NCBI GenBank assembly: GCA_021234155.1
Contig: JAJEKV010000014.1
Location: forward strand, 4,357,563-4,421,562
DNA length: 64,000 bases
Reading direction: 5' to 3'
Source of the DNA: Isoetes taiwanensis
Lineage: Eukaryota > Streptophyta > Lycopodiopsida > Isoetales > Isoetaceae
Shown here: piece after piece, positions 593 through 51,451 of the stretch
Layout: each line of letters opens with the position of its first letter
Numbering within the stretch: position 1 is the first letter of the stretch
Notes under the pieces: generated by a model
What the model was told of the DNA's origin: nothing
The model's database searches: none
The model's input: the letters and a program-made list of their open reading frames with translations, nothing else
Translations under genes and position numbers: made by a program

Positions 593-916
593 GGCCGGAG
601 AGTAATAAAGATCAACTGAATGCTGAGCAAAATCGAGGTCGGTTGGATTCGATCACATATGAGTGATCGTTTATAGTGAAATTCTTCTTCTTATTTATGT
701 TAATGATGATCGAAGTAAATCTTGCACTAGTTCATTGCTTTGATACTATTGAATGAATTCAATGGTTACGGTTAAGGCTTCAGTTTATTGCGTAGATTTT
801 AATAGTTAAGGTTAAGGCTTAAGTTTATTGCGTAGATCAAATAACACTAAGTTGGTTGTCTAGTTCAAATATTGAGGAGTTCTTTAACAATATATCTTGA
901 GTATTATTTTTTAACA
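593..916 (+). repeat. 5'-truncated copia LTR (LTR2)
   Basis: It repeats the LTR from the internal ccggagagtaataaag onward to TTTTTAACA and is followed by a primer site and gag. At several variable positions (attgctttg, attgaggag, gagtatt) it matches the inverted LTR at 11388-11759 rather than LTR1. That is the best evidence that LTR2 and the inverted LTR are the two ends of one element. Confidence 0.8.
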
Positions 917-933
917 GTGGTATCAGAGCTTTG

Positions 934-1909
934 ATGGCAACCAGACTTGGAGCTTCATTACTAAATGGAGTTGATATTTTTCAAGGGGAAGCAGGTTTTC
1001 AGGCCTGGAAAGAAAGGATGAAGGATGTACTGCAAGCAGAAGATTTGTGGGATTTAATTGCAGGTTATGAAGAAGGAGACAGCAGTGCTACTCACTCAGG
1101 AGAAAGTGGAGCTAGTGAAGGCTCTGTTAATGCAGCTACTAGTGGAAGTGTGTCAAAACGTGCACAACAGGCTAGATGCATTATCTCAAGTAAGTTGAGT
1201 TCAAGCATTATGTTTAAACTAAAAAATAAGACACCTAAGGAGATGCGAGATTATCTAGTTAAACATTATGAAGTTAAGAACTCCTCTCAGATTGAGATGC
1301 TTGATAGAGAGCTAAGAAGGCTTAAGTTTAAAGATGAGAACAATCTTACACAATTCTTTCAAAAATATGACAATATAGTGACTGATATTGAGGCTGCAGG
1401 GGATCCTATAACAAAAAAATTTCATGTACTGTTACTATCTAGAGCTTTTTCAGAGTATGAACAATTGTCCATATTAGTAAGAGGTGTGGCTAGAAATCGA
1501 GAAAAGGCAGAACTAATGATAAGGACAGAAATTGAACAAAGAAAGATCATTAAAGGAGAGGAAGAAGAAAACTCTGAGATACTCTTTGTAGGAAAAGGAA
1601 AAGGGAGGTTTAGAAAGACTGGAAGTGACAAAAATAAGTTGGGACTATGTTATAGTTGCAAAAGTATGGGACATCTTAAAATAATTGTCCTAAGCTAAAA
1701 GAAAATAGATGTTTTAATTGTGAAGGGATTGGACATGTAGTTGCAGAATGTCCAAGTCCAAAAGGTGTTGGGAAAGGAAGGAATACAAATTATTCTAATT
1801 TAGAAAGGAAAAGCAACTTCTCAAGGGGAAGAAAGGAAGGAAATTCCAGCATCAATCTTACTCAAGAAACTAGCAATGATGAAGAGGACCCTGATGCAGA
1901 GGTAAGTTG
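934..1909 (+). pseudogene. gag: Copia gag polyprotein, frameshifted in the nucleocapsid
   Basis: The ORF starts at the ATG just after the primer site; the upstream TTG is not needed. About 250 residues of capsid-like sequence contain a Gly/Ser-rich acidic loop and then a Lys/Arg-rich tail. A zinc knuckle starts at about 1648 (CYSCKSMGH), but a one-base loss near 1680 changes frame and ends the ORF at 1698. A second CCHC knuckle (CFNCEGIGHVVAEC, 1710-1751) is read in the shifted frame. Two knuckles after a Ty1-type gag are usual for copia. The capsid would package element RNA in the cytoplasm; this copy cannot make a full protein. Confidence 0.85.
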
Positions 1910-1926
1910 AATGCTATCTGTTCTAT

Positions 1927-2820
1927 TTCAGAAAATTCAATAACAAAACCAATGACATGCCTGTTATAGATACTGGAACTGAGAGATCAGTAGTTAAAAC
2001 TACTGATGCTCTCAAGGAGAAAAGAAAAGAAAGGGGAACATTTGTGCAAATGGGTGATGGAGAGCTGCAAGAAGTGGATGAATCTGGAATGCTTGAACTT
2101 TATGATCTCGAAGACATAGTCAATTTGCATGATGTACTTGCTGTTCCAAAAATAATGAGGAACTTAATTTCATTCAGTCAACTAGTAGACATGGATTTCA
2201 TGCTTGTCTTTGACAATAAATGTTGTAAATTGTTCAGGGATAATAAAATTAAGTTCCTTGCAAAAAGAGTTGGAAATCTTTATGGATTTTATAATAAAAA
2301 TTTGTCTGGAAGCATTAATTCTGTTGAAATTCCAACTTTCAAACTGTGGCATGAGATACTAGGGCATGTCAATATGGATAATATTAAAGAAATGGCATAA
2401 AAAATAGAATAGTAGAAAAAAAAGGACTCATAATTGCTGCAGAAGGAGAGGATTCAGTCTGCTATGGATGTATGGTTGGAAAAAGTTCAAGATTACCATT
2501 TCCAAAAAGACAAGGACAAGCAGGTGATTTGTTAGAATTAATTCACAGAGACCTTTGTGGTCCCATCAATGTGAGAAGTTTACAAGGCAGCAGATATTTT
2601 ATTACATTTATTGATGATCATTCTAGATATACCAAATGTTTCTTTCTTACAGCCAAAGATCAAGCCTATAAGGCATATAGAATGTTTGAATCAGAAGCAG
2701 AAAGAAGTACAGGGAAGAAGGTAAAAATCCTAAGGTCTGACAGAGGGGGTGAATATGTAAATGATGTCTTCAAAAAATATTGAAAAGAAAAGGGATTAGA
2801 AGAGAGTAAAGCCTTACCCA
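1927..2820 (+). pseudogene. pol: Copia protease and N-terminal half of integrase
   Basis: Protease is recognised by the aspartic motif DTGT in the reading that starts at 1957. It is followed by a GAG-pre-integrase segment with HEILGHVN (2347-2370) and, after a stop and frame change near 2400, CYGCMVGKSSRLPFP and the integrase core. The core shows ELIHRDLCGP, FIDDHSRY and RSDRGGEY (2736-2759), covering the first catalytic Asp residues. Similarity fades after about 2785, just before the HTPQQNG motif. That motif begins the opposite-strand fragment at 14341, so the two pieces are complementary. Several stops make this a pseudogene. Confidence 0.85.
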
Positions 2821-11759: not shown

Positions 11760-14345
11760 CATCCCCTTCTAACTTTGAATTTGATTAGCCTTATAATATA
11801 AAAATGACCTTATAGATTATAGATCAGACTTCAATATCAATGCTTAACCATTAAGGTTAGGTCAACCCTTCAATCTATTGTCTTCTTGTTTTTCCTATGC
11901 AGATTTGGCTTGAATATTATAAAATTACATATTTGCAGCATTCCCCTTAATGTTAAATATTCATTATCTGCTAAAAATCTTGCTCTAGTATATCAAACTG
12001 TACAAACTTCTGATTGTATTTCTCTGTGCCCTTTGATTTTACTGTATCTTTCTTCACTGAATTTGAATCACCTGTTTTTGTTTCACTTAAACCAATATTC
12101 CCCTATAATTTTGTAAAGCTATGTACTGGCAAGACCTTTGTTAAAATAACTGCAGTTTGATCTGCTGTGAATTTGTACTCCACAGAAATGATTCCCTTGA
12201 CAATCATATCTCTGATAAAATGTACTTGAAGCTCAATATACTTTGTCCTTTCATGTAGGACAGGGTTTTTAGCCATAGCTATGCAACTGATATTATCAAT
12301 AAACAATGTTGTAGGCTTATTTTGAACTGCTTCCAGTTCACATAATAATCTTCTGACTCAAACAACTTCTCTACTAGCTAAGGATGTTGCATTATATTCA
12401 GCTTCAGCTGTAGACATGGCTATGCAACCTCGCTTTTTACTTCTCCACGACACTGTGCTTCCACCAATCTGCAAAATATACCCTGAGGTAGATTCTCCTA
12501 TGTCCAAATCTCCACCCCAGTCTGCATCTGAGTATGCAGTTAATTCTAAACTTGTATTTGTGAATGTTAGACCTTCATCATATGTTCCCTTTAAAAATCT
12601 GAGTACCCTTTTGGCAGCAAGCCAATGTTGTTTTCCAGGATTATTTCCAAACCTAGTATGCCTAGTCTACTGCAGTTGGCTATGTATAGAAGACATCCCA
12701 CCAACTCTCTATATGGATAATTCTCCATTTGTGCCATTTCAGCTTCAGATTTAGGGCTTAGGTCAGAGCACAATCTCTGGCCTGTTGCTAGTGGTGTTTT
12801 CACACTATTGCAGTTAGCTAATCCTTTCTCCAACATACCTTGAATATTGTTGCTCTATGTCAGAGTTATTCTTTTTTGTTCTCGATTCCTGTGTACTTCA
12901 ATACCAAGGAATTTTTGCAATGACCCTAGGTCTGTCATTTGAAATCTATTGCTTAGTACTATTTTGCAAAAATTCAGACATTCCATATTGTTTGCAACCA
13001 TTATGCAGTCATCAACATACAAAGCAATGAAGCAAAAAGTATTTTTCTCTCTGTAGACATACAAATTACCTTCATTTTGAAGTTTAAAGAAACCTTGCTC
13101 CTTCATAAAGTTGTCCATGCATAAAATACCATTGTCTTGGTGATTGTTTGAGACCATATACTGCTCTTTTAAGTTTACATACTAAATTTCCTCCTTGTTC
13201 AAATCCTTTTACTTGTTGCATAAATATCTCCTCATCAAGGTTAGCATTTAGGAAAGCAGTATTTACATCCATGTAGTGAATCTCAAGATCCAAAGCATTT
13301 GCATATGCAAGAAGTATTATCAAACTTGTAGCTTTACTATTGGAGAGAAAGTTTCCTCATAATCAATCCCCCTTTTATGTGAAAATCTTTGTGCTACTAA
13401 TCTTGCCTTGAACTTTCTTTTGCCATCATTGTCAATCTTTATCTTATATATCCATTTATTTCCAACTATATTTTTGTGTACTGGTTTCTCAACAACTTCA
13501 TACGTTTTTGTCCTATCAAAGGATTCCATTTCTCTTTCCATTGCAATCTTCCATTCTTTTGCATTCTCACTAGTCATAGCTTCTTCATAACTCTGTGGTA
13601 TGCTTGGCTCAAGTATTGCCATGATTTCGTTTATCTCTACTTCATTCCTTTGTAACCTTTTTGATGTGCCTGTTACTGTCCTCCCAAGTTCCTCATAGTT
13701 TGCATCTTTATTCCCTTCTTTTAACTTCTCAACTTCTGTTTTCCTAGCTTCTTTACCATGTTGAACATCCCTGTTATCCACCTCAGCATATTCATGTTCA
13801 ACTTTATCCCTTTGCTTACTAATTTCTTCATCTTGTTTTGATTGCTTCACTTTGAGTTTCTTCAACAAACAACCCTGATCTATTGTCAATTTTCTTTTCT
13901 GTCTTTGTAAAGTATCATTTCATTGAATCTAACATCCCTTCCAACAATGATTTTCCTACTTTCTGGAATATATAAACTATAGCCCTTAGATTGTTCATCA
14001 TATCCTACCATAAAGCACCTAACTGCTCTGTCATCTAATTTTTTTCTTTTTTCTTTTTGAATATGCAAAAAAGCAATACTTCCAAATGCTCGAAAATTCT
14101 CATACCTTATTTTTGTGTTGCTCCAAAGATGCTCTGCTATTTGTCCATTTAGACTTGATAGAGGTTCCTTATTTTGTATAAATACTGCATTTTTTACAGC
14201 CTCCTCCCATAGAAAGTTGGGTAATCCTGATTGCTTTAGCATTGATCTTATTGAATCAAGAATTGACCTGTTTTTCCTTTCTACAACTCCATTTTGTTGT
14301 GGAGTATGGCTGCAAGTTACTTCGTCTACCAATGGATACATTTAA
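11760..14345 (-). pseudogene. pol: Copia integrase C-terminus, reverse transcriptase and RNase H
   Basis: Read right to left, it starts with HTPQQNGVVERKNR and GLPNFLWEEAVKNAVF of the integrase (14341-14150), then a Lys/Glu-rich linker. RT follows: ETFSPIVKLQV (near 13330), MDVNTAFLNANLDEEIFMQQ, VYGLKQSPRQWY and YVDD with CIMVANN (13030-13005). RNase H-like DNISCIAMAKNP and HFIRDMI lie at 12300-12200, then the polypurine tract and LTR. Frame changes at about 13886, 13320, 13150, 12840 and 12590 make it nonfunctional. Its first residues continue almost directly where the plus-strand integrase at 2783 stops. Confidence 0.85.
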
Positions 14346-40389: not shown

Positions 40390-41056
40390 CATGGACTAGA
40401 GAAATATCAAAGTTTGTAACTATCATCAAAAATACGAAAACCTCCAAAACATATTAATTATTGGTCTTATGCAAATCAAAACCTTAATTATTACATACTT
40501 ATCTATGAGAAAGTAGCTATTGCTAGTAGAGCGTGATCTAATAAGCCACTTTTAATCCCGTAGATTCCACTATTCCGATTACTCTATTGGACCTTAAAAT
40601 ACTGCCAAACTACGCATATATGTATCATGAGGAAGAGTGGTCTTAATCCAAAAGAACTTGTGCTATTGACATTATGTTTTACTCAATATCGTTATTTTGC
40701 TGGCAGTAGTATTGTTGACATGTTCATAAAGAAAAGTATAGACATTGGGAATGATGACCTAATGCAAGGCACAACAACAGATGAATCATGGACTAGAGAA
40801 ATATCAAAGTTTATAACTATCATCTCAAATATGAAAACCTCCAAGACATATGTAATTATTGGTCTTATGCAAACTAAAACCTTAACTATCACACACTTAT
40901 CTATGAGAAAGTAGCTATTGCTAGCAGAGCACGATCTAATAAGCCACTTTTGGTCCCATAGATTCTGCTATTCCAATTACTTTTATTGGACCTTAAAACA
41001 CTACCAAACTACCTATATGTATCTTTAAGAAGAGTGGTCTGGATTAATCCAAAAGA
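40390..41056 (+). repeat. Tandem repeat, 407-bp unit, interrupted by the 41057 transposon
   Basis: Unit 1 spans 40390-40796. Unit 2 starts at 40797 and is cut at 41056, resuming at 50827 and ending near 50961. Unit 1 reads through the insertion point (aatccaaaagaacttgtgct), so it is an internal empty-site reference for the transposon. Confidence 0.85.
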
Positions 41057-41092
41057 AACAAGGTGACGGATCAATCGCACTAATGACCTGTA
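41057..41092 (+). repeat. Left terminal inverted repeat with hairpin
   Basis: It pairs with 50791-50826. AATCGCACTA (41073-41082) and TAGTGCGATT (41091-41100) also form a perfect 10-bp stem around atgacctg, so the tip can fold on itself. At the right end the equivalent positions give a direct repeat of tgcactaat instead. Confidence 0.9.
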
Positions 41093-41631
41093 GTGCGATT
41101 GCGTCCAAAAAAGATTCCTTTTTCAAAAAACCCCAAAATTTGGTACTTTTGGCATATCTTAAGAAAACATTTAGATAAACGGTCCTTTGACCTTAAAAAA
41201 AGTGCATTTTTTAGAACAAACAAACAAAGTACAACATTTATAATTAAAAGGAGGTTGTTTTTGGTAGTATTTTAAACGCTTTTGCACTTGACCTGGGCGC
41301 ACATACACACAAACACAATACTAAGAACAGTTAGAAGCATCAAAGAAATTGCAAAAAATGATACAAGGCCAAAATATGATGTAAAATAGATAAGAATGTC
41401 TATGCGCGCATAGACATGCACCCTGTTTAAACAAGCCACATTTTAAAAAAGTCATCATTTAAGTGCAAATAATGATACAAGGGCGTTTTCATCCAAAGTG
41501 TAGTTTAAAGAAGAAAGGCATGTCTATGCGCGCATAGACATGCTCCCCTTTTTTAACAGACGATTTCTTTTTCAAAGTCAATATTTAAAAATAAATGTTA
41601 TTTTTTTCAGTTTATAATCAGACACACAATT

Positions 41632-42818
41632 TTAAATGTCATGGGGGACCTCCTTATCATTAAGGGGTTCATCATCGGAAACATTGTGTTCTTCACCGTT
41701 GTTCGGATCCGTTTCTTCCTCCTCTTCCTCTTCCTCTTCCTCTTCCGGTTGTTTTTCCACCTCAGGTTCTTTATCTACCACTGGCATCAACTCAACATAC
41801 TCCGCTTGGTGATCAGTGTTGCCTGATGCAGGCATCTGTGGCTCTGAACTGCTTATTCCTGCTTGATCGCCACCGTCCTTCACACCCACTTCTTGTTTCT
41901 CATCAGGCAAGTTCATTAAAGAACATATCCTGGACTTAATGAAAGCAACACTATCAGAATCATACTCCACTGCAACACAGTTACGACCCTTCCTCAAAGC
42001 ACATGAAATGGTCGTGCCAGAGCCCGAAAATGCATCCACAACCCAGTCTCCTGGTTGTGAAAACATTTCCAGAAGCCTGTTGATTAGCTGCTGGGGCTTC
42101 TGGTACGGGTTGACAATGCGACCCTGGTGAACTGGGTCGGTCAACTTCTGTGTAACTGCAGGGAGGTGGAAGACATTTCGGTAGTCCATTCCCTGTGTGT
42201 TGTAGTGTTGTAAGGTCCTGGTGCCTAGTGTGCTGTGGTAACCGATGTGAATCTGTTCAAATACGTTTATAAGTCTAGCACCCCCACCATGGCCACGGAT
42301 GTTGGTCTTCACCCTGTAAAACAAATGAAAGAAGTCAGAGACAATTACGGACACCAAGTTTAAAAGAGATGCAGACTTACCATATCGCGGTTCGAATCCA
42401 AAGATTGCAAGTGTTCCTTCAAATAAGGCTTGAACCAAGCCGGCTTGGTTGGTGGAGTGAAAGACAACGATCCTCCACAAAGGTGCTGTGTTTAGCTTTA
42501 CCAGCCGTTTGACAAAAGAGTCAAACTCTGCGTACTTAAAAGGCGCGTCGTCACCTCGGCTGTCAGGCAACTTAAACCCGTAGGGTATGTCAGCAATGAT
42601 CAAGGAGTAGTCACCAGGTTTCAACACTCTGTCTATCTTCACACAATCCCCCTGGTAGACTTGGTAGAGACAGTGGTGGCCAAATTCATCAAAATTCTCA
42701 AAAGCATCCGGTACAATCGCCTGATCGGCCTCTTGTACCCTTTTCAACTTGGCTCTTTCATCTTTTGCTTGCTTCACCAAAGTCAAGAAACCTGGTGGTA
42801 CCGGGTCTTTTTTTCTCT
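41632..42818 (-). CDS. Beta-class amino-DNA-methyltransferase (N6-adenine or N4-cytosine)
   Basis: This is the 3' part of a multi-exon minus-strand gene. The exon starts after the acceptor ttatcttgcag near 42818. YQGDCVKIDRVL precedes catalytic motif IV, ADIPYGF (42574-42594). NPYQKPQQLINRLLE is followed by motif I, VVDAFSGSGTT (near 42011-42045), and AVEYD. Motif IV before motif I defines beta-class methylases, which move a methyl group from S-adenosylmethionine to an exocyclic amine of DNA. An acidic tail (Glu-run) ends at 41632. A 67-nt segment (42317-42383) has GT...AG borders but its removal shifts frame; it reads open if retained. Similar enzymes are bacterial or phage; eukaryotic captures (bdelloid N4CMT, Marchantia DN4MT) are known. 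Confidence 0.8.
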
Positions 42819-43301
42819 GCAAGATAAAAAGAAAGTGAGTACACTGCAACTCCATGCGTGCATGGCAAGGCAGCATCAAGTTTGCTGTGCACGCACAACA
42901 AAGATTTAGTTTTGTCCATGCGCGCATAGACAAAACTGAGGTTTTGCTATGCACGCATAGCAAAACCTAAACTTTGTCAATGCGCGCATGGACAAAACTA
43001 AATCTTTTGCCGTATGCGTGCATAGCAAAGACTTCGGCTTTTGTCTATCGCCAAGATAGACAAATGGTAAGATGCAAGATAAAAAGCAAGCAAATACTTA
43101 CCCAGTTAGTAAAATTTGAGGCAAATTGTTTTATCTTCTCATCGGACGAGGAAATAGGGTACAGCTCCTGAACTTTTTCCCAAGTGTCGCAATTTAAATG
43201 GAGCATTAGTTGTTGCTAGTTGTAGCACAATCTTTTTTGCTGCAAAAAATGATGTCGATCACACAGACAAAACCTACAAATGTAAGTGACAGAGTACTTA
43301 C

Positions 43302-45599
43302 TGTTTAAACTCGTGCTGCATTTCTTCTAAGGTGAACTGCCCGTCGACAACTTTTTGCAGAACCTCGCAAACTTTGTCCATGTTTTTGAGGCCCTGCATT
43401 TCCCTCCAAGGCATCACACTCATATCCTTTTGTTTGGAGGGCTCTCCCCTTTTTCTTTTTGTCTCAGGCTTCTTCCCCTTTGTCTTCAAGGTACCGTCCG
43501 CATACATATCAAAAATTTTCTCCTGCAGATCCCAAATCTGTGGTGCACACACAAAAAAGATTGAGTGTCTATGCGCGCATGGAGTAAGGTGAGATTCAAA
43601 CACAACAACTAGGGAAACTTACCCGGCCGTGCCTGAAGGCTAGCTGAAACAGATTGTCGTATTTAATCAATGAAGTCCTGGCATCTTTTTGATCGTAAGT
43701 CAAACAACACTCAATTGCACATTGCTCCTTTAAAGCGAGATAAGCGTCTGGATCATCCTTTATGTCTTTCTTTCCGGGGTTCTCTGCCCTATAATTATCA
43801 TATTCTCTGTGCATAAATTTAATTTTATCTGGCAAGCTCATGCTCAACCTGTAGTCGTTGTCTACGTTGTGGCTCATAGCAAGCAGTTTTGCTTCAGCGT
43901 CAGTTACACCAACGTAGACGACAGCGTAGAGAGATGAGAAGATTGCTTGCTTGAGTTCTTTCCAATTCTGCCTTTTTGCCTTAAATGTGTGTGTTCCACC
44001 AATCACAATGTACATGTAATTGTCAGCCTCTTCTTTCTTAAATTCTTCCAAGGTTTTATAGTACTTAGGGTCGACAATCACTATGTGTGGGGACACAGTT
44101 GCATTCGACCTGGCCCTGATTCTCTCTTTTAAGGCCGCCAGGTGGTTCGGATAAATCTTTCTTACCTGCAATGACCTGTTACCCTGAGGATCCTTTGGGC
44201 ACAACTTCACTCTATCAATCTGTAAATGCATAATGCCAGGCACCCGGCACCTCTTCTCAATGTCCTCCAGCATTTTGGAGGCCTCGTCCTTGCCCTTTGA
44301 GGCTATCTTCGTGCCGGGTCCTTGGGGCAAGTTACACTTCGAAGACTCCCCCTTTTCTGACTTCTTCGGCTTCCCCTTGACTTTGAATTCAGGCTCTGTT
44401 CCGGTCACAATGCTTGCTTTCCGCCAGTCCGCTGCCGTCTTTTTTTTCTTCTTTTTTGGCAAAACCAGTTCTTCCTCCTCCGAACTCTCCGTCTGTTCCA
44501 CCTCTTCTCCCTTTGGCTCTACCCCTTGCTCTACATCTGGATCTACCTCTGGCTCTACCTCTGGCTCTACCTCTGGCTCTCCCATTTCTGCTTCACCCAC
44601 CGCCTTTGGGTTCAAGAGTGGATCCTTGCACTTAAGCATCAGGTTCAAGTTTTTACGACAAGATCCCCGCAAAAAAAGTTAGAAAAACCCTATGCGCGCA
44701 TAGACAAACAAAAGTACTTACCTTTTCTTGCTTGAAACAAGCCTGTATGAATTCTTGGGCGTTCTCATTCGCGGACATACTCAGTCTAAAAAACATCGGG
44801 TCAACTAAGTACGTGGTGTCTTCTCCCTTTACGGTGGTGGTGATCGTTATTGTAGCCATGCCGAAAAGTTGAATTTCGGTGATTCTGCCACACTTCTTAA
44901 AATCTGATCCGGTCAACTTCGACTTTGGCAAGGAAGATTTCGTGGCAATGTACAGATACACATAGTGCCGTGTCTGGGGATATTCACCACCTCTAATGAT
45001 TAACCATTGACAGTTCCTACAGAAGAGAGAACCGCCATCATTGCGGGTCCACGCTTGCGGTGGTAAAGGTAGGGAGCTTCAGGAGCGGCACATCCTCGAG
45101 AAGGCTTTACGCCTTTGGGTTTCTTCCTCTGAAAATATAAAGTACAAATGAGTCGAAAAATAAAGAATGCTACAAAACAAAAGCGAGACTAAGTAAAGAG
45201 TGAAAACAAAAACATAATAAACCTATGCGCGCATAGACACACTAGGTTGTTGTCTAATGACAAGTAGACAAAATACCTATTGTGTCTATGCGTGCATAGA
45301 CATAAATGGTTTTTTGTCTATGCATGCATAGACAAAAACCTAGGGTATCTATGCGAGCATAGACACCTTAAGTTTTTGTCTCTGCGTGCAAGGACAAAAA
45401 AGAATTGTGTCTATGCGCGCATAGACACAACACTAGCAACTACCTACATATTTGCCTAAAATACAAAAATATACGAACAAATATCTAAAAAGTAGTGCAA
45501 CTAACCTATTTTTCATTTTCCACACAAGCTAACAACATCTAAAAAATGCAACAAACTAATTCTAAAAATAGGCAGGAAAACCGTACCTTGAACCTGCCA
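43302..45599 (-). CDS. ParB-like domain region, probably N-terminal half of the methylase gene
   Basis: Likely exons are 45599-45586 (MAGSR), a Cys-containing exon from about 45128 to 44722 (FCRNCQWLIIRGGEYPQTRH, then a beta-rich segment), 44634-43623 and 43537-43302, with gtaagt donors at the last three. The large exon has an acidic repeat (EPEVEPEVEPEVDPD), a basic run, then the ParB-like domain: IDRVKLCPKDPQGNRSLQVR, YIVIGGTHTFKAKRQ (ParB GxH pattern) and AKLLAMSHNVDNDYRLSMSL. In bacteria ParB-like domains are often fused to DNA methylases, which supports one gene with 41632-42818. Frame problems near 45050 and a TAG in a small exon near 43205 leave the splicing unresolved. Confidence 0.65.
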
Positions 45600-45828
45600 T
45601 TTCAGCGAGTGCTATACAGAGTTGTATGGAGATGTTCTGCAAACTTGGGAGAAGAGAACTCGAAGGCGAAGCGAGGCGGAGCGGCTGGCGCCTAGAAGCA
45701 AGGTATCTATGTGAGAAATTATTTATACTCCGTATTCGTAGTTGCAGTTTTCGTATGGAAAGATACATGGACCGTATATTTTTTTCCCATGGGGTTGCTT
45801 ATAGTACTAGTGCCGTCTATGCGCGCAT

Positions 45829-46026
45829 AGGCAACTGAGTAGACTTATGTTTATTTACTGAACCTATGCGTGCATAGTATTTGTTTCCTAATCCCATGCG
45901 TGCTTAGGATTTGTTTAGGCCATCTATGCGCCATAGATAGGCAACTGAGTAGACTTATGTTTATTTACTGAACCTATGCGTGCATAGTATTTGTTTGCTA
46001 ATCCCATGCGTGCTTAGGATTTGTTA
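45829..46026 (+). repeat. 110-bp tandem duplication with palindromes
   Basis: The segment ggcaactgagtagactta onward is repeated at 45831 and 45941, each with ctatgcgtgcatag and catgcgtgcttagg. It lies between the divergent genes, where promoters would be expected. Confidence 0.85.
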
Positions 46027-46036
46027 AGTGGAATGT

Positions 46037-49000
46037 ATGGGATTGCTCAGTGGATTGTCAGTGGACTTGCTTGTTAGCAACCGTGCCGAAGTTTTTATTC
46101 TGTACAAGTAAGTCTTACACAAGCTGCTTTTGTCTTGCAGCAAAACATGTCGACACGGTGATCCATGTTAAGCCGAAGTCCACGACATTTTGTTTTAGCT
46201 TGCACGGTGGTAAGTTCTCGCTCTCCCTCACCTCCACAAGACATTACAAATCGTGGCAAGAATCCTCAAGAAGAAATGGAGGAGTCTCCGCCCCCCGCAC
46301 ATTTGATCCGCCCCTCTTCCACATTTGTCACTCCTTCACCCACTCACATAATACGCCGCCGTGTAAATTTAGAACTCCTTCGCCAAAAACTTTCCACCAA
46401 GGCAAATATTCTCCATCTCCTTCATCGCAGGCACTGAAAATGGGAGGTCCTTCTCTTTTTGATACACCTTCTCCTTTACAAGGAGCACATCAACCCCGTG
46501 TTAGCCCGGGGCCCACAGCTCTACCTGCGTTCCCAGCTGCCCCTGAAAAAGTGCAGACTCATTGCCTCCATTCGCCGCAGTGCCCACCATCTTCGCGAGA
46601 TCGGTGCGGGTGGATTGGGGAGCCCCGCCAGACAAAGCTCTGTCGCTTTGTCAAACGGGTGCCATTGAGGATGAGTCTCACACTTTCCGAAGTTGCCCAA
46701 ATTGGGTCAGTCCGGGGCGCCAGCACGCTCCCTTAGTGCGGCTGGACTTGCCCTTGCATTTGCGATGAACACACCGTCGATCGTGCCCGGGGGTCGCGTA
46801 CATTCAGAGAGGTAATCTTGGACTGCGAGGTCACATTTGCCCCCGCCTGGCTGCCCGCTAATTAGGCACTACGGGTGTGGTGTATGACTATATATATTTG
46901 GGTGTTTCTGCATTTTATATGTTAGTCAGCAGGCTGATTGCTGCCACGGTTTTTCCCTCGAAAACCCTTCCGGGCGGGGTTTTTAACCCGGCAAAATCCG
47001 CTTTGTCGCTTTTTGTATTGGGTCCCATAGACCGATTGGTCTCCGTGGACGATAAAAGTACCTTCCTTCCTTCCTTCCTTCCTTCCTTTTAAGGAGCTCG
47101 AACAAACACTGGAGGATATTTCGCGTTACGCTAGGCAGATTCCACAACGAAGTAAGGGACCTTCTCTGGCAGAGAGGGTTGAAGAGGAAGATATCTCCAC
47201 GCTGAGAAGAAAAAATCAAGGACACTATTTCCACGGTCATTCTCCACTTTGCTCAACCTAATTAAGTGACGCCGAGGTTCGTACACCAGCCGTCATAACA
47301 AGCGAGTACCACAAGAGAGCCCTCCTTTGCAAGATCTAGCTTTTAAGAATCCCTACAAAGCCAGAAAGAGATTTAAAAGGGATCCTTTAAAAAAAGTTTT
47401 TCGTACAGTGTTACGGAACAAGCTCATGGGCTTGAAATATCTGAGGCCTTTAAGGAGGCTAACCTGTTGTCAGAAAAAATGTTTGCAGTCCTTCACATTT
47501 TCTGCCATAAGGAACGCAAGGCATAGCTTTCACATCAATGACCGGGGTGACCAGAAGCTTACCCTCGCTATTAACGCCGCCGAAGACGGAGACAACTTTT
47601 CTTACTACATGATGAGGAAAACTGTTTGTCAACTAGCTTTCAAAAGCATACATGCCTTAGGTAGCCGGCGAATGGCTAGAGTGCAGAAACGCTTGGATTT
47701 GAATCCACGTATTGATGACTACTGTCACCCAAAAAAAATAGTTGGCATGTACTGTTTAGAAGCGAAGGCTTGGCTTGTGGATTTCTTTGACAAGAATTGC
47801 GAAAGGTTGCCAAACAAATTCGGTTTATCATCTAATGGATAGCTTTTGCAAGAAAGAGGTCTATTCCTTGTACAAAGATCTCTTCCGTGCTTGGGACGAA
47901 GTTCATTTCTTACTCCTACTTCCTTCCGGTTGTGGAAGCGGAATTTAACCTCGTTAGGATTCAAGAGACACAGTTTTCCGTCTGCGCGCCTCGTTCTCTT
48001 TTGAAGGAGAAGAGATCTCGACTAAGGTTCCCGCAGAGAGAAGTAAGTACCCACGTTCATGTTTACCTACACGCACAATCAATGTTTTCATCGATCATGC
48101 TGGCTTAGTCAAAAAATCAATCTTGTCTATCGCGCCGATAGGGAAGAGTGTTTTTGTCTATGCGTGCATGGGCAAAGAAACAAGGTTTGCACCCGGTTGG
48201 TCTTCATGTCCACTTTCGAGCAAAGTGTCCTGTCTATGCGGCGCATAAGCATAGGACACCGATTTTAGCGATCTGTTTAAGTAAACCGACAAAGCTTCTC
48301 ATTTTGTTGCTTGATCAAATTTCGCGAAGACTCCAAGAGCACGAGAGGCTCGGGTTTAGAGAGAAGGAAACTTGCGAAGCATCGAAAAAAATCAAAACAA
48401 TCTGGAGAAGCCATTACAGTATATGTCTGTTGTGATTGATGGCATGGACCAGAAAAAGACAAACCTGTCTCACTTTGTGAATGTTCCTAAAGAGTTACCG
48501 GAAGCGGATTTTTTGAGGTTGCATTTAGTTGGCGCCCTGATTTTTAATTGTGGTGAACTGCAGAGTTTACTTGACTTACCCAAACATTCATGGTGATCCT
48601 AACCTTCTTGGACAATTCTTAACAAGATATTGTCGGCAAAAGAAAAGCTACCTCCGGTTTTTTATGTGCAAATTGGACAATACCACCGGAGAAACAAAAA
48701 CCGTGTATTCTTTGCTTTACGTGCTATCTTTGGTAGAGCTTGGCATATTTAGGAAGGTTAAAGTGGGCTTTCTTCTAGTGGGTCACACACATGACCAGAT
48801 CGACCAGATGTTCAGTCGCTTTTCGGTGAGACTCCGCAGAAAAAAAGCTTTCTGTCTTGACTCCTTGTTGGAAGTGATTGAACAATCTTACAATCCAGAA
48901 CCGGTTATCGAGGTCTTAGCCGAGACTATCGATTTCCGTGAATTTGTTTTTCAAAAACAGTCTACTTCAGGTCCTGCCATCCACCCGCTAAATAATTTGA

Positions 49001-50036
49001 CATTTCAGCATCATGTCAAATTCAAAATTCGCAACGGGAAAGCTTGTCTTCAAGGTAAATACTTTGTAACCTCCAAGTCCTGGCTGCCTGAACCAGGGTT
49101 GGAGTACCTTAAGTTTATCCCAGACGTTACAGAAATGAAAAGAGCTTTGCAGCAGCCCCTAAAAAGTTCCATTGACTACACCAAAAAGAATCCAGCCAAG
49201 GATCCCTTTGTCTCGCTGGCCAACATGGAGAAAAACATACGGTTGGGATTTAAGTACTTCAGTGACGTAGACAAACGCTGGTGGGAAGACTGGTTTGAGG
49301 TCATGACAGATTTAACAAAGATCTTGAAGAGCACTGTCTTAGAGGTTCCCTTTAGATGGCCTTGTAGTTGGCCGTCACAACCTGTTCAAATTCCACAGGA
49401 AAGTGCAGTCGGGACTGCACTCCCCAGCCTGGTGAATAACAAAGAACCTGACCGTCAAATGTATTTAGGGGCGAGAAAAGCAGTAAAAAAGAAAGTCGGT
49501 CAAACTCCAGAAAAGCTTGCAGACTTACAAAAGGACATGTTAATAGCAGTCCCTTCAACAGATGACGATGAGGAGCGTCCTTTCTGGATTGCAAGGGTCA
49601 AAGATATTACCTACAAAGATAACCTTCCTTCCGGTTGTAAAGGTTCACCGGTATGCCACTAAGGCTCTGAGATCCATATACTGGTAGATATGATCCTCAA
49701 GTCGTTCCTGTCAAGAAGGGAAGGAAAACAATGAATAAGAATCACGTGGATGATGTCAACTTGAATGAAACAGCTGTCCTTGCCTACGACTTTACTTTGA
49801 GGGTTGATAATAAACTTCGCAGCACAACAGTTACATTGTTGAAGGAACAAATCGAGGACAGCTCGGACGACACTGAAGAAACTGAGGAGCCTACTTCGTC
49901 CAGTTCTTCAGGCGAACCAACAGAGGGTCCTAGTAGTGGAGATGAAGAAGGAATCGATGAGTATGACGACGTTCCTGATGAAGCCACTCTCGCCGATTGG
50001 CAGCGCGCTAACCCTGGCAAGAAGCTGCTATTGTAA
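46037..50036 (+). pseudogene. DUF7869/DDE-like transposase gene of the 41057 element
   Basis: A candidate first exon (46037-46107, MGLLSGLSVDLLVSNRAEVF, gtaagt donor) precedes a LINE insertion. From 47090 pieces read KELEQTLEDISRYARQI, and LTCCQKKCLQSFTFSAI with VCQLAFKSIHALGSRRM (47470-47670). The core follows: VVIDGMDQKKTNLSHF (48431-48478), FMCKLDNTTGETKTVYSLL (near 48662) and FLLVGHTHDQIDQMFSRFS (48769-48826), which look like the acidic/His blocks of a DDE enzyme. The 48550-49662 frame is open for 370 residues, with KRWWEDWFEVM and a PFWIARVKDI barrel-like end. An acidic tail ends at 50036. Frameshifts near 47840, 48395, 48570 and 49660 disable it. DUF7869 assignment is from memory of motifs. 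Confidence 0.65.
46150..47089 (+). mobile_element. RTE-like LINE copy 3, nested in the 41057 transposon
   Basis: The last third matches copy 1 (KCRLIASIRRSAHHLRE, 46545-46600; IEDESHTF, near 46665; hairpin core at 46945-46996; gggtcccatagaccgattgg at 47020). The tail is CTTC repeats (47060-47087). Upstream, Pro/Ser-rich frames at 46165-46440 may be the element's 5' region joined by internal deletion; that part is not verified. It lies in the spacer or first intron of the transposase-like gene and is younger than the host transposon. Confidence 0.65.
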
Positions 50037-50790
50037 AGGTGTAAATTTGTAGTTACATTCCTGCTATGCACGCAGAGGCTTTAATATTTTTGTACGTAAG
50101 TTGTTTGAAAAGCAAGCAAGACTTTTGATATTTGTTGTGATACACTCTTGCTTTGCGTGCAAAGCTTGTGTAAACTTTGTAATGATGTTGAATATTAAAC
50201 AAAAAGACCTTTTGGAGTACTTTTTTTATTTTCATTTGCTGAAATAATTTTTTTGTCTTGGACTGTCTATGCGCGCATAGACATTTTATCTTAAAGTTTG
50301 TTCCAGGCTTGGTGAATGAACTCAGACAGTGCCTTCTTTGCAAGCTTTTTAGATCTTAAGTGAAAGAGATTCAAGCTCGTACAGCGTTTCGAGTGATTTG
50401 TATTATTTTTTGGTATACCAAAAAATTTCTAACTGGGACTGTCTATGTGCGCATAGCACCTTGTCTCCCAGGTTTTTCTAGGACTACTAACGGAACCTGT
50501 ATTTTTCCTTTTTTGCTAGCTTTTAAAAGTTGTACTAGCTAAGATTCCAACTATTTTTTTTTTGTTGATTTCTTGTCCGTGCTAACTTCCCCAAGTTTTT
50601 TTTTTTGTTTTTAGGACACCCAAAAATGGTGCACGGAAAGTAAAAAGAACAGCATTTTTTAATAATTAGACGCCAAAAAGAGCACCTGTTAACTAAATTT
50701 GTAGTCTATTTTTTTGAGTGACCCCCCAAAAGTGGTCGAATTTAAGGGAATCTTAGGGAATCTACAAAAGATGCTTTTTATTAGTGCAAT
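50037..50790. other. Right noncoding part of the 41057 transposon
   Basis: This is the 3' flank of the transposase-like gene. It carries palindromes at 50057, 50150 (GCTTTGCGTGCAAAGC), 50265-50282 and 50441, and T-runs. No gene is seen. Confidence 0.6.
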
Positions 50791-50826
50791 TGCAGGTCAT
50801 TAGTGCATTTGATCCGTCACCTTGTT
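50791..50826 (-). repeat. Right terminal inverted repeat
   Basis: Reverse complement AACAAGGTGACGGATCAA then ATGCACTAATGACCTG. It differs from the left TIR at two of 36 positions. Confidence 0.9.
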
Positions 50827-50961
50827 AAGAACTCATGCTATTGACATTGTGTTTTACTCACTATCACTATTTTTGTAATAGTAGTATTGTTGACATGTTC
50901 ACAAAGAAAGATATCGACATTGGGAATGATGACATAATGCAATGGACAACAACAGATGAAT

Positions 50962-51451
50962 CTCATTTCATCTGACCTGTAAATAACCAACCGTTCATAC
51001 CTTATTAATGCAGGAAAACTACCAACTTGTGTGCAAAAAGGTTATAAGGATTAGGCATTTGCAAGTATGTCATTACATGGCACTTTTGGGAACCTCATAA
51101 AGTCAGTTGGTCTTGGAGGTGTTTGACATCTACATAATGAGGGGCTATCCACTAGGTTATGTCTTGGTAAACAATGCAATTACTTGCTAAAATTGAGGCT
51201 CATACTTTTACCCCAAAGGAATCTAAATGATTGATTTCAATCTACATAAAATAATGGTTTGAACAGCATTGCATTTGTAGATCTCTTTCTGGCTTACATA
51301 TTTTTAGCCATGGTGGCAACAAGGGCCATAGCACCATTGCGAGAAAATTGCTTAGCTCATGTTACAGATGTAACTTGACATTAATTATTCTCTGTCTTCA
51401 AAATGATAAACAAAGTGTTCCAATACTAGTCTCTACTTTTCCTACCATGTC
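50962..51451. other. Spacer between two TIR transposons
   Basis: It begins where the 407-bp repeat stops and ends at target duplication TGTC (51448-51451). No gene or further repeat is seen. Confidence 0.55.

Follow-up and report, generated by a model that had tools for sequence, protein, structure and literature searches.

A transposon family of the vascular plant Isoetes taiwanensis with a DUF7869 transposase gene, a divergent methylase fusion gene and subfamily-specific palindromes

We analyzed a 64,000-bp stretch of the Isoetes taiwanensis genome (hereafter the window; positions 4357563-4421562 of contig JAJEKV010000014.1, assembly GCA_021234155.1), and searched the entire assembly of 1,658,258,908 bp in 1110 contigs for related DNA. 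At window positions 41057-50826 lies a transposon with terminal inverted repeats (TIRs), identified by those repeats, a target-site duplication (TSD), its genomic copies, and an empty site, and belonging to a subfamily characterized by a palindrome with a GCGC center (Table 1). It carries two divergent genes: the plus-strand gene codes for a DDE-like protein with a match to Pfam DUF7869 (1.9e-32 in the window and 1.5e-51 in the related element L045), and the minus-strand gene is a spliced fusion of an N-terminal domain, a ParB-like domain, a linker, and a methylase. An earlier sequence-only reading of this DNA had described a plant TIR transposon with 36-bp TIRs containing two mismatches, AAGA flanks, an amino-methylase gene with the motifs ADIPYGF and FSGSGTT, and a divergent DDE-like gene with the motifs DGMDQKKTNL, LDNTTGETK, and GHTHDQIDQMF. 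All of these motifs are present, and the profile matches agree with both gene assignments; the inverted ends are also found, although with two mismatches over 34 bp and three over 36. The AAGA flanks stand on both sides and are confirmed by a paralogous empty site, in that the joined flanks minus one AAGA align unbroken across the junction to a neighboring host-repeat copy (~40560-40751). The host repeat around the element (window 40390-40981 and 50827-50962) has ~398-bp spacing, and it is the neighboring unit that provides the paralogous empty site.

Many further copies bounded by the same TIR are present in the genome, as expected if the sequence-only reading of a transposon is correct. Among 392 left-end candidates, 40 matches were scored, 18 of which are identical across 144 bp (the window's own included), and 40 right-end matches were scored among 488 candidates. 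Of 17 long copies retrieved, 14 have both TIRs, separated by 8.7-9.3 kb, with no such pair found in L039-L041, and all three retrieved short copies, of 3.6-3.7 kb, also have both; an exact 4-bp TSD flanks 17 of 18 elements, counting that in the window, the exception being L028. Compared with L027, eight others (L025, L028, L030, L031, L032, L034, L035, and the window element) differ by 1-5% over the initial 500 bp and by 0-1% over the final stretch, and the interior differs patchily by up to 14%, with 140-234 gap openings per pair. This patchiness could result from unpolished nanopore repeats or from gene conversion, and makes the copies unsuitable for an age estimate. The published assembly was built with nanopore reads (PMC8566536), and because repeat interiors are perhaps badly polished, we do not take stops and frameshifts as proof of decay. 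Contamination was rejected as a source of the element, as its genes contain spliceosomal introns, the contig is that of a plant (with three of the 66 chlorophyll a/b-binding matches in the assembly), and copies are found on tens of contigs.

The amino-methylase assignment is certain as judged from the sequence: the match to Pfam N6_N4_Mtase (1e-17) covers profile positions 3-216 of 221, a near-complete domain, and it is the only Pfam match of the fusion protein above cut-off. Motif IV precedes motif I, which is the beta-class order, shared with CcrM and RsrI; these N6-adenine enzymes are also the best matches among solved structures (4.6e-11 and 8.5e-8, respectively), with the N4-cytosine enzyme PvuII last of 10. 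PADLOC methylase models match the domain (among the best 25 of 56, one is mad2), and neither the ParB-like nor the transposase protein has a PADLOC match. In L045, the fusion gene has five exons with GT-AG borders that give a 943-amino-acid stop-free frame, with a provisional 5′ end, and the L045 and window proteins are ~47-50% identical in their aligned parts.

Genome searches gave 142 methylase, 110 DUF7869, and 115 ParB-like matches, with 105 of 5539, 110 of 8391, and 113 of 4211 candidates scored, so these numbers are lower bounds; merging yields 102 methylase, 110 DUF7869, and 112 ParB-like places, and we regard places within 15 kb as neighbors. A DUF7869 neighbor accompanies 31 of the 102 methylase places, where ~0.2 such pairs are expected by chance, and all 31 pairs are divergent. 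ParB-like neighbors are found at 35 of the 102, without exception upstream on the methylase strand and in 33 cases at 718-1450 bp, and 31 of the 112 ParB-like places have a DUF7869 neighbor, all again divergent. The methylase/DUF7869 pair is thus a large and old family. In nine comparisons of the ParB-like, methylase, and DDE parts, limited to stretches chosen for open frames, third codon positions differ 1.6-5x as much as first or second positions; synonymous sites are saturated except in one DDE pair, L045-L067, for which the ratio of nonsynonymous to synonymous substitution rates is 0.054. This constraint argues that the methylase has been retained and is not a passenger.

The window element contains a 20-bp palindrome, TGTCTATGCGCGCATAGACA, together with variants, and the exact sequence has 184 copies in the genome, compared to 0 for a reversed-pattern control. 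With at most one mismatch allowed, the element has 16 occurrences of the 12-bp core of this palindrome, and the remaining 54 kb of the window have none. L045 has a different palindrome, AAAGTGTATTCCGGAATACACTTT, with 1474 exact genomic copies (reversed-pattern control, 0), and a third type reads GGTAT[AG]AATT[CT]ATACC or CGGTATAAATTTATACCG, with 4415 exact copies of CGGTATAAATTTATACCG (control, 0). Elements with 53-67% identical proteins have the window-type core (L012, L014, L015, L018, L019, L024, and L046). Using predicted coordinates alone, we retrieved six intergenic regions belonging to other divergent subfamilies. All six contain palindromes, with 3-14 exact cores each; they have 3-16 perfect palindromes of at least 12 bp, a few of them of other sequence, compared to 0.3-0.6 in shuffles. 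Four of these regions have the second type (L048, L061, L062, and L063) and two have the third (L047 and L060). We counted 55 family loci, many of which cover overlapping parts of one and the same element. Exact cores of a single type are found in 50, and no locus combines exact cores of two types; L013 and L044 have one-mismatch cores only, the coding pieces L065-L067 have none, and single one-mismatch matches to the third type in L026 and L032 are at chance level. Coding DNA is avoided, with none of the 16 window cores lying in a named exon and none of the 15 L045 cores in coding DNA, even though 5977 of the 8389 bp (71%) of L045 are coding by gene model. Some of the palindromes are situated in short direct repeats (window 45827-46028 and 41369-41552).

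Taken from the symmetry center, the half-sites of the three types are cTATGCG, gTATTCC, and gTAT[AG]AA, which have the common frame TATnnn|nnnATA. The TAT/ATA letters occupy positions 4-6 from the center and are kept at 0.82-1.00 per position among sites picked with three or fewer mismatches, and the inner three bases of the half-site are as well kept within a type and different between types. We read the three types as descending from one ancestral site, whose center would have diverged alongside the proteins. The N-terminal domain is the least conserved measured part of the fusion protein between types, with 11 of 43 residues identical in a local alignment of the window and L045 copies, compared to 50% for the ParB-like part, whereas 28 of 70 and 29 of 68 are identical within one palindrome type; it is a candidate for the part that confers specificity.

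Table 1. Features of the transposon in the window (positions are those of the window; a dot indicates no strand).
Feature	Positions	Strand	Basis
Whole TIR transposon	41057..50826	.	TIRs, TSD, copies, empty site
Target-site duplication AAGA, left	41053..41056	.	Flank comparison, empty site
Left terminal inverted repeat, begins AACAAGGTGACGGATC	41057..41092	+	End-to-end comparison
Exact 20-bp palindrome TGTCTATGCGCGCATAGACA	41397..41416	.	Exact match
Exact 20-bp palindrome	41521..41540	.	Exact match
Methylase exon 2 (motif I DAFSGSGTT, acidic tail)	41632..42313	-	Pfam N6_N4_Mtase; GT-AG intron
Methylase exon 1 (motif IV ADIPYGF)	42381..42816	-	Pfam N6_N4_Mtase; GT-AG intron
Linker exon, out of frame in window copy by gene model	43102..43239	-	GT-AG borders; same exon in frame in L045
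Linker exon of fusion gene	43302..43537	-	GT-AG borders
ParB-like exon (GGTHTFKAKRQ block)	43623..44630	-	Weak ParB matches of homologous L045 open reading frame, none of window open reading frame; hhalign P 0.006
N-terminal domain exon (QWLIIRG...), no Pfam match; 5′ limit provisional	44722..45042	-	Gene model, GT-AG borders
Intergenic cluster, 7 cores (at most one mismatch), starts 45224, 45287, 45350, 45412, 45818, 45865, 45975	45224..45986	.	Core scan
Exact 20-bp palindrome	45408..45427	.	Exact match
Nested insertion (590 bp) terminating in a (TTCC)n run; not in L027, L034, L035	46487..47076	+	Copy alignment
Upstream coding piece of transposase gene	47270..47842	+	Resembles L045 5975-6820 by eye
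Transposase gene 3′ part, DUF7869 domain ~48562-49059	48360..50036	+	Pfam DUF7869 1.9e-32
Exact 20-bp palindrome, right subterminal	50264..50283	.	Exact match
Right subterminal cores, starts 50268 and 50444	50268..50455	.	Core scan
Right terminal inverted repeat	50791..50826	-	End-to-end comparison
Target-site duplication AAGA, right	50827..50830	.	Flank comparison, empty site

The window copy is damaged, with the nested insertion lying inside the transposase gene and one linker exon out of frame by gene model, the latter of which could reflect either decay or an assembly error. The insertion has a 19-bp overlap of its flanking alignments and a terminal (TTCC)n, similar to insertions of non-LTR (long terminal repeat) retroelements. 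A second, more distant DUF7869-like piece (DNASCQNKN, GHTHDNIDALF) is present near the end of locus L031 (9531-9746), from which it would seem that there are other DUF7869 transposons in the same genome; we found nothing on DUF7869 in open-access papers. By eye, the L045 element apparently lies between pentatricopeptide-repeat-like open reading frame pieces (L045 10-639 and 8696-9493), and elsewhere in the window (901-2400 and 13320-14341) there are open reading frames resembling pieces of copia-type retrotransposons.

We read the family as cut-and-paste TIR transposons of a lycophyte, with a fusion gene of prokaryotic type. With just under even confidence, we propose from these sequence patterns that the fusion protein recognizes the palindrome of its own subfamily and methylates element DNA. 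The sequence-only reading had suggested that the element could methylate itself; the palindromes, which that reading does not mention, are candidate targets for such methylation. As a dimer, it would bind these palindromes through its N-terminal domain, its ParB-like domain, or both, and would methylate adenines (N6) there, marking the promoters, introns, and subterminal DNA of the element. In a host that silences repeats, either the mark or the bound protein would then sustain expression of the element's genes and leave the ends of the element open to the cognate transposase. The effect would be confined to related copies, and divergence of the central six bases of the palindrome would give rise to mutually blind lineages. 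Adenine is the sole amino base methylatable by this enzyme class that is present in all three cores, and this, together with the affinity to CcrM and RsrI, favors N6-adenine if the palindrome is the substrate, in which case the product would probably be N6-methyladenine (6mA). The GCGC, CCGG, and AATT centers disfavor a CpG-only explanation. More tentatively, and with considerable doubt, we suggest that this may be prokaryote-style self-recognition in a vascular plant, with a ParB-like adenine methylase and its palindromes coevolving, the TATnnn|nnnATA frame fixed and the central six bases acting as a changeable code, such that each subfamily would mark only its own DNA with 6mA and escape silencing by 5-methylcytosine.

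Several observations weigh against this proposal, many of them concerning the ParB-like part. The sequence-only reading named a ParB-like GGTHTF block and expected profile searches to support both domains; the block is present and the methylase has its profile match, but Pfam ParB_N has 0 matches genome-wide at E 0.1, with a control search positive in 11 of 14 genomes. The window's own ParB-like open reading frame has no ParB match in profile searches, and its best Pfam match, Ribosomal_L18A at 0.0044, is below cut-off yet stronger than the ParB matches of the L045 open reading frame, which are to phrog_723 (a ParB-like partition protein, 0.018), TIGR03764 (ParB family, 0.039), and DUF6551 (0.069). 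We set aside as chance-level the Pfam matches to Ribosomal_L18A in the window, IgA0_D2 in L046 (0.041), and DUF6551 in L045. A search of solved structures with the ParB-like part gave five chance-level matches, none of them a ParB, and a single-sequence AlphaFold2 model has a predicted local distance difference test (pLDDT) score of 45.8, unusable for a fold search. An hhalign comparison of three family members with eight plasmid ParB proteins gave a P of 0.006 and a probability of 6%, compared to P of 0.31 and 0.52 for two unrelated controls. In this alignment, the G-x-R-R block of ParB falls opposite GGTHTFKA, and the E-N stretch of ParB falls opposite HNVDN. From these weak matches and an algal precedent in Ectocarpus, described below, we consider the ParB-like identity likely.

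Other points against the proposal concern the methylase and the palindromes. The NCBIfam CcrM model matches the methylase at 3.4e-16, but this and the other NCBIfam matches are far below the models' own cut-offs. Canonical beta-class motif IV is [DNS]PP[YFW], and the family departs from D-P-P-Y, with DIPY in the window and L046 and DLPY in L045. Three letters would agree by chance in two further palindromes with a probability of ~1 in 4096, which is less striking given that the frame was noticed afterwards. Of 50 listed GCGC palindrome sites, only 20 have a scored family match no more than 10 kb away, a proximity shared by ~0.5% of the genome; the other 30 are unassigned, with the scored matches being a lower bound. 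The link between palindrome type and protein clade comes from pairwise percent identities of a handful of elements, and only 45 of the 110 DUF7869 places have a listed partner, although incomplete scoring may account for the rest.

The main rival, which we judge rather unlikely, is that the transposase, or another DNA-binding domain of its gene, binds the palindromes for end pairing or autoregulation, much as with the subterminal repeats of other plant transposons, and that the methylase is an accessory with some other target. In the window, palindromes are subterminal on both sides, lying 344 and 468 bp inside the left end and 371 and 547 bp inside the right; two of the three short copies (L042 and L043, 3.6 kb) keep these places, and palindromes are concentrated in the region between the divergent genes, the expected site of action of an autoregulator. 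However, 12 of the 16 window cores are internal, including in fusion-gene introns, where end pairing needs none, the remaining short copy, L044, has just one core, located 710 bp inside its left end, and the outermost left palindrome of L045 is 1.2 kb inside.

It is improbable, in our estimation, that the palindromes serve as parS-like sites at which the ParB-like part nucleates a protein-DNA complex, methylation being a secondary activity or one since lost (D-I-P-Y is perhaps inactive). Clustered dyad-symmetric sites and the weak ParB similarity would fit this explanation, but codon positions in the methylase and in the ParB-like part appear equally constrained, motif I is intact, and the Pfam ParB_N search was negative. 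We give still less credence to the fusion being a functionless passenger captured once and the palindromes expanded satellite-like repeats: many copies do have stops, and some palindromes are in the direct repeats noted above, yet subfamilies that are ~50% identical still have both the gene pair and the codon pattern, and a common TAT...ATA frame with differing centers and the absence of palindromes from coding DNA are unexpected for a neutral satellite.

The proposal of a self-recognizing, self-methylating element has a close precedent in the brown alga Ectocarpus. The sequence-only reading knew of no plant transposon with this gene set, but the same pair is described in the Ectocarpus element Sola1-1_Ec32, where a ParB-methylase gene lies opposite a Sola1 transposase gene, with green and red algal cases also cited (PMC12477816, 2025). 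As here, where all 31 neighbor pairs are divergent, the methylase gene of Sola1-1_Ec32 is on the strand opposite the transposase, and there, too, self-binding and self-modification of the element by this protein have been hypothesized; the Ectocarpus protein joins a ParB-like domain to an N6/N4 amino-methylase domain (PMC12477816), an arrangement that is likely for the Isoetes fusion, with its weak ParB matches. The Isoetes elements differ in that they are in a vascular plant and are ~9.2 kb rather than 21.5 kb (PMC12477816), and in having subfamily-specific palindromes and more than 100 scored places per gene. In the main text of the Ectocarpus paper, the string "palindrom" does not occur, and no target sequence is named in the text portion covered (PMC12477816). 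We found no land plant case of the gene pair in the open-access literature, with palindromes outside the scope of those searches. The gene set is thus of a known kind, and the addition here is the cis side, the subfamily-specific palindromes.

The TIRs and 4-bp TSD (17 of 18 elements) are similar to those of the Sola superfamily, with the transposase here known by Pfam DUF7869 only. Sola1 shares a 4-bp TSD with Sola2. For Sola2, this TSD length is documented (PMC3627910). As in ParB/parS systems, the candidate sites are clustered and palindromic, unlike them there is no Pfam ParB_N match here, and the methylase resembles CcrM and RsrI in motif order and structural matches. In Arabidopsis, VANDAL transposons code for the anti-silencing factor VANC, which is not known to be a methylase. 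VANDAL elements are similar in having an element-encoded factor and short motifs that are dense in their own noncoding DNA and differ between families, but the motifs are 8-9 bp and nonpalindromic, and the transposase is different (PMC5735166, PMC10398659). Specifically, VANDAL elements have a Mutator-like element (MULE) transposase and a VANC protein, whereas here there is DUF7869 and no such Pfam match in the fusion. Binding and loss of methylation have been demonstrated for VANC (PMC5735166, PMC10398659), and the Isoetes comparison is one of sequence. The TET/JBP transposons of fungi are likewise DNA transposons of several superfamilies with a DNA-modification enzyme, but the enzyme is a dioxygenase, and no amino-methylase appears in the text portion covered (PMC12730594). 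The N4CMT of bdelloid rotifers is also a bacterial N6_N4_MTase captured by a eukaryote, but is a host gene acting against transposons and is not transposon borne (PMC8885841).

We name no prokaryotic donor, as searches of phages, plasmids, IMG/VR, and GTDB gave distant methylases and no close ParB-methylase fusion. Methylase matches reach no more than 28% identity, across roughly two thirds of the query (among the best 15 of 681 records from phages and the best 10 of 2298 from plasmids), and eight regions inspected have a methylase gene without a ParB part, as judged by annotation and size only. The ParB-like part has nothing better than E 5 in phages by tblastn. Searches from short peptide patterns, which have low sensitivity, gave no loci in one IMG/VR search and two loci in the other (29% and 27% identity), and a single locus in GTDB genomes, in a Bacteroidales metagenome-assembled genome (37% over 83 residues).

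The algal proposal of a ParB-methylase that binds and modifies its own element gains here three candidate target sequences matched to protein lineages. The existence of 6mA in land plants is debated, and if our reading is correct, this family would be a source of sequence-specific 6mA (or N4-methylcytosine) in a land plant. It would also be an independent case of VANC-like sequence-specific anti-silencing, and would offer sequence-specific methylases whose specificity has changed naturally.

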